64,000 bases of DNA, taken from the NCBI RefSeq assembly GCF_002159335.1, contig NZ_NFHP01000003.1:186001-250000 (forward strand), written 5' to 3'. Positions 51,970-57,794 of this stretch are shown in pieces. This DNA is from Collinsella sp. An7. GTDB taxonomy: Bacteria > Actinomycetota > Coriobacteriia > Coriobacteriales > Coriobacteriaceae. The translations under genes and the position numbers were made by a program. The first letter of the stretch is position 1. The number at the start of each line of letters is the position of its first letter. Under the pieces are notes generated by a model. That model saw nothing but the letters and a program-made list of their open reading frames with translations. It was not told where the DNA came from and searched no databases.

Positions 51970-52152
51970 CTACTCCTTCAACTCATAGAAGTCGCGTTGC
52001 AGCCGCTTGAACTCGTCGCCACAGATGCGCGAGCGTTCTTTCATCATGTCGCGCACGTCCGCGTTCCTGCCGTCGCGGATGGTGCTCGCGGTGTAGCTGT
52101 ACCAGTCGCGTGCGAACATCATGAGGAGCATCTGCGTGTAAAGGTCCATCAC
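51970..52152 (-). CDS. Small phage protein, unknown function
   Basis: The 60-residue product (MMDLYTQMLLMMFARDWYSYTASTIRDGRN...) has an N-terminal hydrophobic/aromatic helix and a charged C-terminal helix (MMKERSRICGDEFKRLQRDFYEL). It overlaps the portal stop by 4 bp and ends 3 bp before the MuF-like gene, so it is translated within the operon. I do not recognise a family. Confidence 0.65.
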   Translation of the reverse strand: MMDLYTQMLLMMFARDWYSYTASTIRDGRNADVRDMMKERSRICGDEFKRLQRDFYELKE

Positions 52153-53585
52153 TGAGTCACCGCCTGCGTGCCGCCGCCCATGAGCGACAGGATGGCGCGC
52201 TGGTTGGCGTTCGCGCCCATCTGCTGCACGACCTTCTGTCGCATGTCCTCGCCGAATCCGAGCTGCTCCCAGAAGACCTCGGTGGCGGCGAACTCGGGCA
52301 CGACGGAGGCGATCTTCACCATTGCGTCGGCCTGGCTCGCGATGGACGGCATGAGCGGGTTCTTGAAGTTGGCCGCGATTTGCAGCGCGTCATACGTGTC
52401 GAGCGTCGCGTCGTTGGCGATGGCAAGCGCCATCTTGGCGATGGTGACCAGCGACTCGCCGTTGCCCTCGTTGAGGTCGGTGACCTCCATGATGAGCGGC
52501 TCGTTTGCCTGCGTAATGGCCTCGGCGCTCGACGGGTTGTCGTGGATGACGCCGAGCTGCGACACGGGGACATTCGTCTCGCCGGAGAATCGGGCGGCCA
52601 ACGCCCGCATGTAGTCGGTGTGCGGCTGCATGGAGCCCTGCGAGAGCTGGCCGAAGGTCGGCGTAGAGCCGTCCTCGGTCTGGGAGACGGTGAAGATGTT
52701 GCCGATGTACGCCTCCCAGCGCGTGCGGTTCTCAAAGGGGTCTGAGTCCACGCCGAGAAGGTACTTCTGAGGGCTCGTGAAGAACTCCGCCGAAATCTCC
52801 GTGCGCAGGGCCTCTCGCACGCCGCTGTCCGTGATGAATCGCACGGCGCGGGTAATGCGCGACTGGCCGAGCGGCTGGCTCTCGGTCGGGTTGTAGGCCA
52901 GCGCCTCCATGAGCGGTCTGCCCATGCGGTGCGCCATGCGCGCCACCGTGATCGCGTCGCGCCCGTCGACGTGGTAGGTAGCCTCGTCGGTGTAGAGCGC
53001 CAGCTCGTCGGGCGCGCCCGAGTCGTCGTAGTGCATGATGACGAGGCCGGACGAGATGCGGCCCAGCCGCTCCGACCACTTGGCCGCGCCGTCCTCGGCG
53101 CTGTGCGTCACGACAATGACCGGCGGCTCGCCCACATCGCCCTTGGAGAGCGTCACAAAGTCGCAGCCCGCGATGAGCTCGCTCTCGCACGCCTGCTTGT
53201 ACTTGCGCTTCAGGTTGCAGCGTCGCACGAGCTGGTCGACCTGCGCGGACAGCGCCTCGTCACCCACGGTGAAGCCGTCGAAGCGGCTGCGCGACGCCAT
53301 CGCGGAGACGGCCTTCTTGGGCCATCCCACCACGGTCTCGATGTTTCGCAGCGACGGCGGGATTGAGATGCCCAGGTCCTTGAGGACGTTCTCGCCGTCG
53401 TAGTAGCGGCGGCGAAGCTGGTTCTTGGCGAGGTGGCTCGCCCAAATGGAGAGCAGCTCGTCCACCTCATCGGCGATGCCGAACTCGTCTCCATCGAGCA
53501 CGAGAGCCGAGACGATCGCGCGGCTGTCGTGCTTCAGGCGATGCGACGGCGGCGCGCCGCGATGCCAGGTGTTCGGTTGCTCCAT
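52149..53585 (-). CDS. Portal protein, SPP1 Gp6-like
   Basis: The 478-residue protein forms the dodecameric DNA gate of the head. It has the SPP1-type portal pattern: an N-terminal clip/wing region (LLSIWASHLAKNQLRRRYYDGENVLKDLGISIPPSL), YNPTESQPLGQSRITRAVRFI, and the stem/crown with SVSQTEDG-like loop (IFTVSQTEDGSTPTFGQL), VSQLGVIHDNPSSAEAI. Length is typical. It overlaps its neighbours by 1 and 4 bp. Confidence 0.92.
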   Translation of the reverse strand: MEQPNTWHRGAPPSHRLKHDSRAIVSALVLDGDEFGIADEVDELLSIWASHLAKNQLRRRYYDGENVLKDLGISIPPSLRNIETVVGWPKKAVSAMASRSRFDGFTVGDEALSAQVDQLVRRCNLKRKYKQACESELIAGCDFVTLSKGDVGEPPVIVVTHSAEDGAAKWSERLGRISSGLVIMHYDDSGAPDELALYTDEATYHVDGRDAITVARMAHRMGRPLMEALAYNPTESQPLGQSRITRAVRFITDSGVREALRTEISAEFFTSPQKYLLGVDSDPFENRTRWEAYIGNIFTVSQTEDGSTPTFGQLSQGSMQPHTDYMRALAARFSGETNVPVSQLGVIHDNPSSAEAITQANEPLIMEVTDLNEGNGESLVTIAKMALAIANDATLDTYDALQIAANFKNPLMPSIASQADAMVKIASVVPEFAATEVFWEQLGFGEDMRQKVVQQMGANANQRAILSLMGGGTQAVTQ

Positions 53586-54397
53586 CAGCTGTCACCCCCA
53601 AGCATCGAGACGATGGCCCGCTCGCGGTCGCTCAGCTCCCACACGTGGGCGCGCGCCCGTTCGGCTGCGGCCCGTTCGGCTGCTGCCCTCTCGGCTGCTG
53701 CCCGCTCGCTTAGGAGCAGCCCACCCCCGTAGATTCCGCGCGGATTGGCGTCGAGCCTGGAGATGCGGCAGCAGTCGCCGCGACGCACGACGAGGCGGGT
53801 GTGGTGCCGCGCCATCCACTGGAGCTTCGCGGCGGTCAACACCTCGTCGGGGTACTCGTACTTCGGCAGCTTCCTCGACTTGGCCTTGAGCAGCCTGTCG
53901 TTCGCCTCGTTGATGCGGTCCGACAGCTCCGGCTCGCTCTCTGCCACCACGTCCCCGCCCATGTTGGTGACGAATGAGGTGGGAACCACCGCGCCGTTCT
54001 CGTAGGTTATGTTCGCATCGCACACGACGTGGCAGACGTCCATGCAGACGGACACGCCGCTCAGGCACGTGAGCGAGGGTGCGAAGAGAAAGAACGGGAT
54101 ACCCTCGTCGAGGTAGAAGCGCTGAATCTTGGCGAGCATAGAGAACGGCGGGTTGTCCACCACGCAGCACCCGTCTGGGTAGTCGAACGACTCGTAGTCG
54201 CCGCCGGGCCAGAACGGGCGCACCATGTCGGAGCGCCGCACTCCGTACCTCTCGGCCACCCACTCCGCCACGACCTCGTATATCTCGTCCGGCGTGTAGC
54301 AGTCGTCCGTGGTCTTCTTCGGCTTGAACTTCTCCACGAAGCCATCGTAGTCCTCGAACAGCTCGCGCTGCTGCGAGGTCACTCCGCCACGTCCCAT
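53585..54397 (-). CDS. DNA adenine methyltransferase-like phage protein (DNPPF motif)
   Basis: The 270-residue protein lies between terminase and portal genes. It has YTPDEIYEVVAEWVAERYG (residues about 34-52), RPFWPGGDYESFDYPDG and the catalytic-type motif VVDNPPFSM at about 79-87, as in phage N6-adenine methyltransferases of the Dam/NPPF type; IPFFLFAPSL follows. A clear glycine-rich SAM loop is not obvious. The C-terminus carries repeated ERAAA units ending in RARAHVWELSDRERAI. It overlaps the terminase and portal genes by one base each (TGATG). Confidence 0.6.
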   Translation of the reverse strand: MGRGGVTSQQRELFEDYDGFVEKFKPKKTTDDCYTPDEIYEVVAEWVAERYGVRRSDMVRPFWPGGDYESFDYPDGCCVVDNPPFSMLAKIQRFYLDEGIPFFLFAPSLTCLSGVSVCMDVCHVVCDANITYENGAVVPTSFVTNMGGDVVAESEPELSDRINEANDRLLKAKSRKLPKYEYPDEVLTAAKLQWMARHHTRLVVRRGDCCRISRLDANPRGIYGGGLLLSERAAAERAAAERAAAERARAHVWELSDRERAIVSMLGGDS

Positions 54398-55821
54398 CAG
54401 TACACCACCGCCTTGCGTCCGGGTCGTCTCTTCGTTGTCCTCGCCTGCCACAGCGCGAGCGCGCAGGCCTCTATGAGGGTCGCGTCCGCGCCGCCAGCGT
54501 CCTCGAAGCCCACGCCGTCCTGCCCGATGCGGCGGCGGGCGGTGAGGGTCGCGGAGGCGGTCAGCTCCTCCTGACCGTAGTGCGCGAGGTCGCGCTCGGC
54601 AACGGCGTTGGTGAGCATGGACACGGCCTTGGCCATGTCGCGCGGGCCCGCCACCACGACGGCGCGCTTGGGGAAGCCGATGTCCGCGAGCCTCGTGGTG
54701 AGCGCCGCCGTGCTGCCGCCGTCGATGGCCACCGTGGCCACCTTGTCGCGGCGCGCGTCCAGCCACGCGGCCACCCAGCCGACGCCCTCGGAGAGCGGGC
54801 GGGTGTCCACCCACTCCACGTAGGCCGCGCCCTCGGCGGGGCGCAGGCAGTAGGCCAGCGTCGCTCGGTCGGGGCCGAACTTCACGCCCGCGCACGTGAC
54901 GCGCGGCTCGGGCGGCTCGTCGGTCTCGCAGAGCGCCCACGCCTTCTCCGAAATGACGTGCTCCACCGCAGCGGTGGAGGCGTCCCACCAGCCCAGGTAC
55001 TCGCGGGCGAAGCTGTCCGGCTCGCGCACGAGCGACTGCGCCGCCGAGCGCATGGAGCGCTCCTTGATGCGATAGCCCATCATCGGGTTGCACTCGTACC
55101 AGCGCTCCGCGTCGAGCGGGTCTCCAACCTCGCCAGCCGCCCACTCCAGCCACCAGTCCTCGCCGAGCTCACTGGCGTGGGCGCGGTCGTGCATGTCGCG
55201 GAAGACGGTGCCGGGGCACTTCTGATTCGGCGGCGTTCCGATGTAGATGACCTGCGGGTCTCCGGAGTCGCCGGCGATGGTGGTCGGCATGAGGGCGTCG
55301 CGCTGCTCGGCGGTGAGCTCCTGCGCCTCGTCCACGACGATGACATCGTAGGTGCCTCCGCGCGCGCCCGAGTTGGTGCGCGTGGAGAACTCGATGAGGT
55401 GGCCGTCGGCGAGGTATATCCCCTCGGCGCCCTGCGCCTTGTAGACGCCGCCGTGCGGCTTGAGCTTGGTGGAGAAGTCGCGGTTGGCCGCGATGAAGTC
55501 GCACATGAACTTGAACATCTTACGCACGGTGCCAGCGTGGTGCGCGGAGTACAGGACGTTACGGCCCTCGATGAACGCCGCCCACAGCGCGTAGTAGCGC
55601 GCCGCGAAGCTCTTGCCGTTCTGGCGTGGGCGCGACAGGCCGATGTTGATGGCCTCGGCCTCGCCCAGCTCGTTCTTCGCGAGGTACAGATCCATCTCGT
55701 ACGCCTGCGCCGGGATGAAGCTCACGCCGTAGCGGGCGAAGAGCGCGACCGCCTCCGGGCCGTCGGTGCGGTCGTATGCCCCGACCACCTCGAAGGTGGG
55801 CGTCTGGCGCCCGCGCCTCAC
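54397..55821 (-). CDS. terL: Terminase large subunit
   Basis: The 474-residue packaging motor has an N-terminal ATPase with Walker A-like SRPRQNGKSFAAR (about residues 63-75), Walker B VIVVDEAQELTAEQRDAL and coupling motif YIGTPP, and a C-terminal RNase H-like nuclease with acidic residues in CAGVKFGPDRATLAY and TVAIDGGST. The SRPRQNGKS form is common in actinophage terminases of the HK97/phi-type. It starts at GTG 55821, overlapping the small subunit stop (GTGA). Confidence 0.94.
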   Translation of the reverse strand: MRRGRQTPTFEVVGAYDRTDGPEAVALFARYGVSFIPAQAYEMDLYLAKNELGEAEAINIGLSRPRQNGKSFAARYYALWAAFIEGRNVLYSAHHAGTVRKMFKFMCDFIAANRDFSTKLKPHGGVYKAQGAEGIYLADGHLIEFSTRTNSGARGGTYDVIVVDEAQELTAEQRDALMPTTIAGDSGDPQVIYIGTPPNQKCPGTVFRDMHDRAHASELGEDWWLEWAAGEVGDPLDAERWYECNPMMGYRIKERSMRSAAQSLVREPDSFAREYLGWWDASTAAVEHVISEKAWALCETDEPPEPRVTCAGVKFGPDRATLAYCLRPAEGAAYVEWVDTRPLSEGVGWVAAWLDARRDKVATVAIDGGSTAALTTRLADIGFPKRAVVVAGPRDMAKAVSMLTNAVAERDLAHYGQEELTASATLTARRRIGQDGVGFEDAGGADATLIEACALALWQARTTKRRPGRKAVVY

Positions 55822-56042
55822 GAGCGCCGCTTCCGCGCGGCCTCCACCGGGTCGGTCTCGGCCTCGTGGTCGGGCAGCGCGTCTATCTCAGCCATGACCT
55901 CCATGAGGCGCTTGGAAAGGGCTGCGATGTCGCGCGCGCTGTCCTTGGCGTCGATGGTCTCGGCCACGGCGTCGCGCAGGGCCACCAGCGCCGTCCTGCG
56001 GTCGTTCGTGCGCACGGCCTCAAGAACGCTCACGTGAATCAC
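55818..56042 (-). CDS. terS: Probable terminase small subunit
   Basis: The 74-residue product (starting VIHVSVLEAVRTNDRRTALVAL) is a helical protein with DAKDSARDIAALSKRLMEVMAEIDAL, a pattern seen in short actinophage terminase small subunits. It is too short to hold the usual N-terminal DNA-binding helix-turn-helix plus oligomerisation domain in full. Its position directly before terL with a GTGA overlap is the main evidence. GTG 56042 is the likeliest start; the frame upstream crosses a terminator. Confidence 0.7.
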   Translation of the reverse strand: MIHVSVLEAVRTNDRRTALVALRDAVAETIDAKDSARDIAALSKRLMEVMAEIDALPDHEAETDPVEAARKRRS

Positions 56043-56065
56043 CGGCCTCTCTACCTGTGGAAACG

Positions 56066-56087
56066 AAAAAGGCCGCACGTGGCGGCC
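56066..56087 (-). terminator. Intrinsic terminator between HNH and terS genes
   Basis: GGCCGC-ACGTG-GCGGCC (56071-56087) is followed on the minus strand by TTTTTCG. It lies 24 bp upstream of the terS start, inside what should be one late transcript. Confidence 0.78.
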
Positions 56088-56171: not shown

Positions 56172-56582
56172 TCAGAGCGCGCCAGAGCGCCGCTTGGGAT
56201 GGCGCACGGGTACTTGCGCCGACTTGCCCTTCGCGCCCCGTGAGACGGCTCTCGCGCCCTCGCAGAACGCCAGCGCTGACGGCCACGGGCCGAACCTGCG
56301 GCGCACCTCATCGCGGATGCGCCCGACGGCGGACACGCTGCGGTCGCTGCGCCACTGGTTGCAGCACCGGTGGGCGGGCGCGGTGTTGGCCATGTCCGCC
56401 GGGTCGCCGCCCTTGCTGACGGGCAGCAGCTCGTCGAGCTCGAAGGCGAGCGGGGTGCCGGCCGGGGCGTCGAGCGGGATGGGGAGTCCGCATATCCAAC
56501 ACGGCTGACCGAGCGCGCGCACGCGCTTCCACAGGACGTCGCGCCGGTACGATCTGCGCGGGTTCGGCTTTGGCTTGGCCAT
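56172..56582 (-). CDS. HNH endonuclease, first gene of the late operon
   Basis: The 136-residue nuclease has a zinc-supported HNH domain: CWICGLPI, FELDELLPVSKGGDPADMANTAPAHRCCN. HNH proteins next to terminases assist cos cleavage and packaging in HK97-like phages. The usual DH of the first motif reads DE here and the second zinc pair is HxxC rather than CxxC. Both occur in related phage HNH proteins as I recall them, so it need not be dead. ATG 56582 has GGAGGGGG upstream. It is the first gene behind the putative late promoter. Confidence 0.85.
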   Translation of the reverse strand: MAKPKPNPRRSYRRDVLWKRVRALGQPCWICGLPIPLDAPAGTPLAFELDELLPVSKGGDPADMANTAPAHRCCNQWRSDRSVSAVGRIRDEVRRRFGPWPSALAFCEGARAVSRGAKGKSAQVPVRHPKRRSGAL

Positions 56583-56614
56583 GCGCCGCCCCCTCCACTG
56601 GTTGGTGGGGAATG

Positions 56615-56640
56615 AAAAAAGGGCCGCGCATCGGCGGCCC
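56615..56640 (-). terminator. Intrinsic terminator between the late promoter and the first late gene
   Basis: GGGCCGC-GCATCG-GCGGCCC (56621-56640) is followed on the minus strand by TTTTTTCAT (U-tract 56615-56620). It lies about 60 nt downstream of the inferred late transcription start and 33 bp before the HNH gene, so late expression requires reading through it. Confidence 0.85.
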
Positions 56641-56706
56641 CTCACGTTCGGCGACTGCGGCGCTGGCCCGGGGAGGTGGTGTCGGTTCCGCGCCGCTTTC
56701 GCTGAC

Positions 56707-56800
56707 AATATAGTGGCACGGAATGCGGGCGCACGGGCCGTCTATATGCGTCTAAATGTGTCTGCGACTGTCTATGACTGTCTATCGCTGTCTATCGCGC
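56707..56800 (-). promoter_or_regulatory. Putative late promoter with six helically phased 10-bp repeats
   Basis: From 56741 to 56800 the sequence is six contiguous decamers; on the plus strand each begins TCTA or TCTG and four carry TCTAT (minus-strand consensus CAGNNATAGA). About 30 bp downstream is a -10-like TATATT (minus strand, 56707-56712) with no recognisable -35. Transcription would start near 56700. The array then covers about -41 to -100, the place for an activator or loading site, and lies directly after the ArpU-like gene. Confidence 0.7.
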
Positions 56801-56814
56801 GCGGTCGCGACATG

Positions 56815-56846
56815 AAAAAAGCCCCCGGCGACGCATCGCCGAGGGC
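56815..56846 (-). terminator. Intrinsic terminator of the ArpU-like gene
   Basis: GCCCCCGGCGA (56821-56831) pairs with TCGCCGAGGGC (56836-56846) around CGCA, with one G-T pair, followed on the minus strand by TTTTTTCAT. It lies 18 bp after the regulator stop codon. Confidence 0.88.
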
Positions 56847-56864
56847 AATCCGGTTCGCATCATA

Positions 56865-57338
56865 TCAGAACAGCGCGGCCTGACCGCAGCCCTCGCGCGC
56901 GGCGGCGAGCCCCACCGAGTCGACCCACTCGAGCGCCTGCCTGTGCGCCTGCCGTGCCCCAGAGCCCGTGACTCCGAGCGCGCGGCCGATGCGGTCCCAC
57001 TCGTAGAGGTCGAGGTAGCGCAGCTCCAGCACGTCGCCCCACGACGGGTGGTTGGGGTTGGCGGCGCGCACGCCGGCGCACACGGCGCGGGCGTCCTCCA
57101 CCGCGCGCTCGTACTCGGCGAGCTCAGAGCGGGCGCGCGCCTCGGCGTCGATGCGGGCGTCCGTGGCGCGCATGGGGTCCGACGCTCCGCCGCCGCGCCC
57201 GATCGCCTCGTACGACTGCGCCCTCGCGCCCTCCCGCTCGCGCATGGCCCGGATCGCGGCGAGCCGACCGTCGATGTGCCGCTGCGCCGCCGACGCGGCC
57301 TCGAAGTACTCGCGTGCCGTAATGGTCACCACCTCCAC
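56865..57338 (-). CDS. ArpU/RinA-like phage late transcription regulator
   Basis: The 157-residue protein has a helical N-terminal half (TAREYFEAASAAQRHIDGRLAAIRAM; ARIDAEARARSELAEYERAVEDARAV) and a C-terminal sigma-70 region 4-like helix-turn-helix (LELRYLDLYEWDRIGRALGVTGSGARQAHRQALEWV). This architecture and its place just before terminase match ArpU/RinA family late regulators. Translation starts at GTG 57338, only about 8 nt from the expected transcript start. It has its own promoter with an inverted repeat and its own terminator, and the phased repeats it may act on lie just downstream. Confidence 0.75.
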   Translation of the reverse strand: MEVVTITAREYFEAASAAQRHIDGRLAAIRAMREREGARAQSYEAIGRGGGASDPMRATDARIDAEARARSELAEYERAVEDARAVCAGVRAANPNHPSWGDVLELRYLDLYEWDRIGRALGVTGSGARQAHRQALEWVDSVGLAAAREGCGQAALF

Positions 57339-57352
57339 ATGGTCTAGCTGCG

Positions 57353-57391: not shown

Positions 57392-57406
57392 TGATGCATG
57401 GTCGTG

Positions 57407-57441
57407 AAAAAAGCCCCGCACGCCGTCCTGGCGCACGGGGC
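57407..57441 (-). terminator. Terminator of the early phage operon
   Basis: GCCCCG...CGGGGC (57413-57441, inner stem CACGCC/GGCGCA) is followed on the minus strand by TTTTTTCAC (U-tract 57407-57412), 6 bp beyond the last early gene. Confidence 0.85.
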
Positions 57442-57446
57442 CTCCG

Positions 57447-57794
57447 TCACGATCGGCCTCCGGGCTTCACCCCGGCTTCGCCGCACGCCTCGCGTATGCG
57501 GCGGGCGTAGCTGTCGAGCACGTACTGCGTGGAAACGCAGTAGGTCAGGTCGTTGTCCTCAATCTCGTCCGCCAGCGCCAACAGCGCGTCGCGGTCGGGC
57601 GACACGGTGCAGGCGTCCGCTGGCTCGTACGTCCTCGCAAAGATGTCCGGCTTGCACGGGTACCGCTCGCCCTCGACCCCCGTGATGATGTAGTCGCCGG
57701 CACTCGCGTGCATGACGCCCTCGAGCGTCTCGATGTCCGTGGGCTCCTCTGTCACGAAAGCCTCGACAACGACAGGCTTCTTCCTGTACTTCAT
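57447..57794 (-). CDS. PGDYG-like phage protein with extra C-terminal module
   Basis: The 115-residue protein begins MKYRKKPVVVEAFVTEEPTD and contains ASAGDYIITGVEGERYPCKPDIFARTYEP, a pattern found in many phage proteins of unknown role. After residue 68 comes a second module (SPDRDALLALADEIEDNDL ... YARRIREACG) also present at the end of the next gene upstream. It is the last gene of the early operon and overlaps its neighbour by 4 bp. Confidence 0.75.
   Translation of the reverse strand: MKYRKKPVVVEAFVTEEPTDIETLEGVMHASAGDYIITGVEGERYPCKPDIFARTYEPADACTVSPDRDALLALADEIEDNDLTYCVSTQYVLDSYARRIREACGEAGVKPGGRS

Follow-up and report, generated by a model that had tools for sequence, protein, structure and literature searches.

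Late operon activation by regulators of the RinA/Ltr type in Gram-positive phages is poorly understood. About four direct repeats have been described just upstream of the late promoter for the Ltr, RinA and Alt regulators, and in phage phi13 the Ltr-dependent activity of this promoter was abolished once the direct repeats had been deleted (PMC13123087). Both Ltr and RinA are reported to act as activators of initiation (PMC13123087). For the TP901-1 late promoter, four repeats at -76 to -32 are cited in the same source (PMC13123087).

Here, we analyzed a window of 64,000 nucleotides (the whole stretch of DNA under study) from the genome of a gut bacterium, in which six 10-bp repeats of a resident phage lie between a regulator gene and the genes for packaging. 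The first-pass annotation of this DNA had taken the arrangement to be without precedent, an idea that fails in view of the Ltr, RinA and Alt repeats already reported near the late promoter (PMC13123087).

The array and its surroundings

The array has an invariant core, GTCT, at 56740, 56750, 56760, 56770, 56780 and 56790 on the plus strand; on the minus strand, which is the coding strand here, the core reads AGAC and begins at 56793, 56783, 56773, 56763, 56753 and 56743. With a period-10 score of 39 out of 50, the array is the top site of the window (the runner-up scored 28), and it exceeds the maxima of 25–30 found in 40 Markov-3 simulations of 64 kb, bearing out the six contiguous decamers of the first-pass annotation. 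The decamers had been drawn as TCTATNNNNG at 56741–56800. They do exist, at 56740–56799, but in the frame as drawn four of the six copies fit at TCTAT. The “exact helical phase” ascribed to them was likewise right in part: the spacing is a regular 10 bp, but since it is 10 rather than 10.5 bp, the helical phase is only approximate. One period is absent beside the promoter box, as is also the case in two relatives, G003 and G028. Elsewhere in the window, a 15-bp tandem repeat at 53655–53708 lies within a coding frame, where it repeats AERAA-like residues.

Read along the minus strand, the regulator gene comes first, followed by a terminator, the six decamers, a 20-bp spacer, the -10 region, a leader with a second terminator, and the HNH-like, terS, terL and portal genes (Table 1). 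The regulator gene ends 65 bp upstream of the array, and an intrinsic terminator, consisting of a stem and a T-run, precedes the first late gene, both as annotated earlier. The leader matched no known structured RNA in Rfam. Another strong, terminator-like hairpin with a T-run is found upstream of the regulator gene and on its strand, at 57402–57452 (fold z -5.9), so that the regulator gene is bracketed by terminator-like hairpins.

The -10 region, GTGCCACTATATTGT, contains three candidate hexamers: CACTAT (56715–56710, with TG upstream), TATATT (56712–56707) and TATTGT (56710–56705). TATATT is the -10-like element that had been noted as lacking a -35, and a search for a sigma-70 -35/-10 pair at the proposed late promoter indeed gave none. 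In the window, any assignment of the exact -10 hexamer and of the start site is tentative. In G003, GTGCCACTATAGGGT lies just as far from the array as the -10 region does here, although its word and spacer differ from those in the window.

Table 1. Positions of the array and neighboring features in the window
Feature	Position	Strand	Description
Array of six 10-bp repeats	56740..56799	-	Proposed row of regulator binding sites; period-10 with other words in relatives
Late regulator, 157 aa	56865..57338	-	N-terminal helical hairpin and C-terminal sigma-region-4-like HTH; distant RinA (phrog_36/DUF1492) relative
-10 region of proposed late promoter	56705..56719	-	Without -35
Intrinsic terminator in leader, between proposed promoter and first late gene	56618..56643	-	Stem 56643–56618, then T-run
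Intrinsic terminator 3' of regulator gene, just upstream of array	56821..56846	-	Terminator search, fold
First late gene, HNH-nuclease-like	56172..56581	-	44% identity to G016 HNH-like protein; no Pfam match itself
Terminase small subunit	55818..56078	-	phrog_1459, E 1.7e-13
Terminase large subunit	54397..55821	-	Pfam Terminase_6N, phrog_9
Portal protein (SPP1 gp6-like)	52149..53585	-	Similarity

The regulator protein

The window regulator matched phrog_36, the RinA family, with an E-value of 2.4e-5 (1.9e-38 for phi11 RinA itself), a similarity that places it in the RinA superfamily, and 36 of the 45 members of the regulator alignment matched the same profile. It had previously been labeled “ArpU-like”; we could not confirm this, as the protein was without any NCBIfam match at E-values up to 1, and it is better described as a RinA-like (phrog_36-like) protein whose HTH is of the sigma region 4 type. 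Searching the named phage records by tblastn with the regulator retrieved no relatives.

The Pfam Sigma70_r4 profile matched the window regulator at 7e-4, which falls below the curated cut-off, and other members at values down to 3e-7. An AlphaFold model based on 45 sequences (pLDDT 90.8) shows two long helices followed by a C-terminal three-helix HTH, and residues 82–146 of the model superpose on -35-binding sigma-4 domains with Z scores of 6–7 and an rmsd of about 2 Å. A sequence-profile search also gave hits to sigma-E region 4 (E 0.04). A Foldseek search of the PDB with the whole regulator returned no significant match, and the E-values by themselves are not significant for sigma-4. The closest viral models include DUF1492 proteins, and DUF1492 is also the name given to a RinA in one phage record. 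As modeled, the regulator has a C-terminal HTH of the sigma-4 type.

Arrays in related phages

The first relatives found, with regulators 49–72% identical to that of the window (and one at 30%), carried period-10 arrays with the words TTACCA, TTGCAC, TTGCGT and GTGACG. Regulator homologues were present in 83 of 398 genomes of the same class. The 1.6 kb following each regulator gene was scored at periods from 5 to 25, with 24 of 40 matches defining a strong array. A strong period-10 array followed the gene in 23 of 58 non-redundant loci encoding a homologue. At the same threshold, these 58 loci gave no array at period 8, one at period 11, seven at period 9 (a coding-like multiple of three) and 15 at period 20 (a harmonic of 10). 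Of the control regions, 1 of 54 before the regulator and 1 of 52 lying 2.5–4.1 kb downstream had a period-10 array, and shuffled sequences had a mean of 0.75. The check proposed with the first-pass annotation, namely that the decamer phase should be conserved while the bases drift in relatives carrying this regulator, was thus clearly positive.

About half of the homologue loci had no strong array within the 1.6 kb; shorter or more distant arrays exist in L158, L168, L173 and L002. Spacing also varies after some regulator genes: L188 alternates between 10 and 11 bp (the mean, 10.5, equals the helical repeat), and L177 has about 9 bp (by eye). More period-10 repeats, possibly inside coding sequence, occur upstream of the regulator at L113:4027–4090 and L121:2170–2260. 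At three loci (L116, L110, L115), further genes are seen between regulator and array. In G005 and G003, a HicA toxin-like gene and a gene for an HTH protein separate the regulator gene from the late promoter; the G005 copy matched Pfam HicA_toxin (E 5e-10), and the adjoining HTH protein may be its antitoxin partner. G011 shows the gene for this partner together with a partial HicA-like sequence. G003, a Coriobacteriaceae MAG, contains two copies of the related prophage region, L110 and L111, which have identical regulator matches and lie on a single contig, separated by about 42 kb.

Blind scans of viral contigs for TGACA or TGGCA every 10 bp yielded 224 arrays. Sixteen of them, including some near-duplicates, were preceded by a regulator-like gene, where about 0.6 would be expected by a rough estimate, and 15 of these lay within -74 to +119 nt of the gene end. 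A scan with the GTCT pattern gave one array just after a regulator-like gene (L037) and otherwise mostly unrelated tandem repeats. Diverged GTCT period-10 arrays with no detectable regulator homologue nearby were seen in six viral contigs (L025, L049, L085, L086, L087 and L099), and possibly represent the same type of site with unrelated regulators.

Short tandem repeats form easily, and period-10 repeats unrelated to any regulator are common in viral contigs, so a chance or mutational repeat without function had to be considered. The presence of arrays with different words at the same place in 23 of 58 loci, and their near absence from the flanking control regions, refutes this explanation, to which we assign a negligible probability.

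Shared core, promoter motif and phase

The repeated word varies from phage to phage, but most words have a TTGNCA-like core that resembles a -35 element. A circular alignment of 28 array profiles, made with no target motif, converged on TTG[ACG]C. (The weak period-10 loci L162, L164, L170, L172 and L179 were omitted from this register alignment by eye, but were kept in the count of 23 in 58.) Gibbs sampling downstream of the arrays produced CGTGATATAACTATG, an extended -10, to which the window box is a weak match. Direct repeats thus lie upstream of a -10 box, as they do in the RinA/Ltr superfamily.

The box holds a fixed position relative to the words: of the 15 loci with a high motif score, to which this test was confined, 14 deviate by at most 1 bp modulo 10 (Rayleigh p 1e-5). 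Several boxes had been picked wrongly by the sampler, and on the unedited picks, with no quality filter, the phase was therefore not significant (p 0.11). We also considered the final word as an ordinary -35 element, but measured by eye it lies about 12–14 bp from the first hexamer and about 20 from the second, rather than 17.

A leader terminator was present in 13 of 24 loci with arrays, compared to 20 of 849 control windows (2.4%). This recurrence fits a lambda-Q-like antitermination, in which the promoter would fire unaided, the array would serve to load the regulator onto the polymerase there, and the polymerase, so modified, would read through the leader terminator. The phrog_79 profile, “anti-termination protein Q-like”, matched 12 of the 45 regulators (weakly in the case of the window), and phi11 and TP901-1 similarly have a hairpin and T-run before terS, as read from their sequences. 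However, a promoter with no -35 is unlikely to be strong when firing alone, and Ltr and RinA are reported to activate initiation (PMC13123087). We regard antitermination as a tentative proposal, and as an addition to activation by the regulator rather than an alternative to it.

Which protein reads the array

The HNH, terS and terL genes follow shortly after the array, and the terminase small subunit (TerS), if ring-shaped, could read such a row of phased words, raising the question of a cosB- or pac-like packaging site that TerS would wrap. A sequence of this kind would follow TerS, and comparison of three genomes revealed the opposite. TerS is shared by G005 and G016 (124 of 127 residues identical, or 98%), whereas the last 45 residues of their regulators share 31 and their words differ. 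Conversely, G005 and G011 have unrelated TerS proteins, but regulator C-termini identical at 44 of 45 positions and the same word. The phase lock between array and -10 box and the position of the array, which in many phages abuts the stop codon of the regulator gene, also speak against a packaging site, which we consider highly improbable.

Across the core columns of 21 loci, word similarity correlated best with that of the recognition helix (r 0.34), compared to 0.14 for the N-terminal hairpin. Since the word tracks the regulator HTH and not TerS, the regulator is the likely reader of the array on this comparative evidence, although the link between word and regulator could arise in part from physical linkage and shared ancestry.

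A model for late activation

The earlier suggestion that the array is the binding or loading site of the regulator is supported by the conserved phase, by the phase lock to the -10 box and by a word that follows the regulator rather than TerS. Because relatives keep the spacing and change the words, the array looks like a docking row for the regulator. From the sequence comparisons, the array is very probably the operator of the late promoter, to which the adjacent RinA/Ltr-like regulator would bind through the words, aiding RNA polymerase at an extended -10 that has no -35. The regulator made from the adjoining gene would bind one -35-like word per 10 bp, with several molecules sitting head to tail along the array. 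Once bound, it would recruit or modify the RNA polymerase holoenzyme at the -35-less box, and the packaging-head-tail operon would be switched on from that promoter. What we observe is the array, its phase, the promoter motif, the order of the genes and the tie between word and HTH; from these we infer binding, activation and the number of protomers.

A bolder generalization, which is doubtful at present, is that regulators of the RinA/Ltr-type superfamily are sigma-region-4 mimics that stand in head-to-tail rows on -35-like words, one per helical turn, both recruiting polymerase to a promoter that has no -35 and carrying it through the leader terminator. If so, word and recognition helix would co-diverge, each phage having a private word, and these phages would hold a natural set of orthogonal switches. 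The comparative set comprises dozens of regulator–word pairs in one fixed geometry. It opens the recognition code, the contribution of helical phasing and a possible step of antitermination to direct tests, and such pairs could serve synthetic biology as orthogonal phage switches.

Comparison with known late switches

The closest counterpart is the P23 promoter of Staphylococcus phage phi13 (Ltr family IV), where the regulator gene likewise lies directly upstream of the late promoter, repeats upstream of the TATA box are required for P23 activity, and a nuclease and terminase are the first late genes (PMC13123087). Since repeats of the phi13 type are needed for activation by Ltr, the window array appears to be a variant of the known Ltr/RinA late switch. 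It differs from P23, which has three and a half copies of an 18-bp repeat, in its 10-bp repeats, present in about 4–14 copies across relatives and with a variable word. In Lactococcus phage TP901-1, the gene for the activator is similarly followed at once by imperfect direct repeats and then by an extended -10 (TGATATACT), but the pattern is weaker and its period is 11 bp, and Alt is assigned to phrog_2198, with a marginal match to phrog_36. The RinA proteins of Staphylococcus phages phi11 and 80alpha belong to the same superfamily as the window regulator (phrog_36, DUF1492). The word is TTGGCAG in phi11 and TTGACAG with a 94% identical RinA allele, in both cases 3' of the rinA stop codon and with 11-bp spacing; the pattern in the RinA phages is weaker, with two to three words at 11 bp, in contrast to the six or more words of the present arrays, which are spaced by 10 bp. 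Lambda Q binds a single site between -35 and -10. The lambda pR'-tR' region resembles the window in having a leader terminator between the late promoter and the late operon, but lambda lacks an extended phased row, and antitermination is only a possibility for the window array.

The near-invariant 10-bp phase with many copies seems to be new, although the original Alt, RinA and Ltr papers may already note some of these features. Also seemingly new, in comparison with these systems, are the private yet -35-like words, their phase lock to an extended -10 without a -35, and the recurrent leader terminator.
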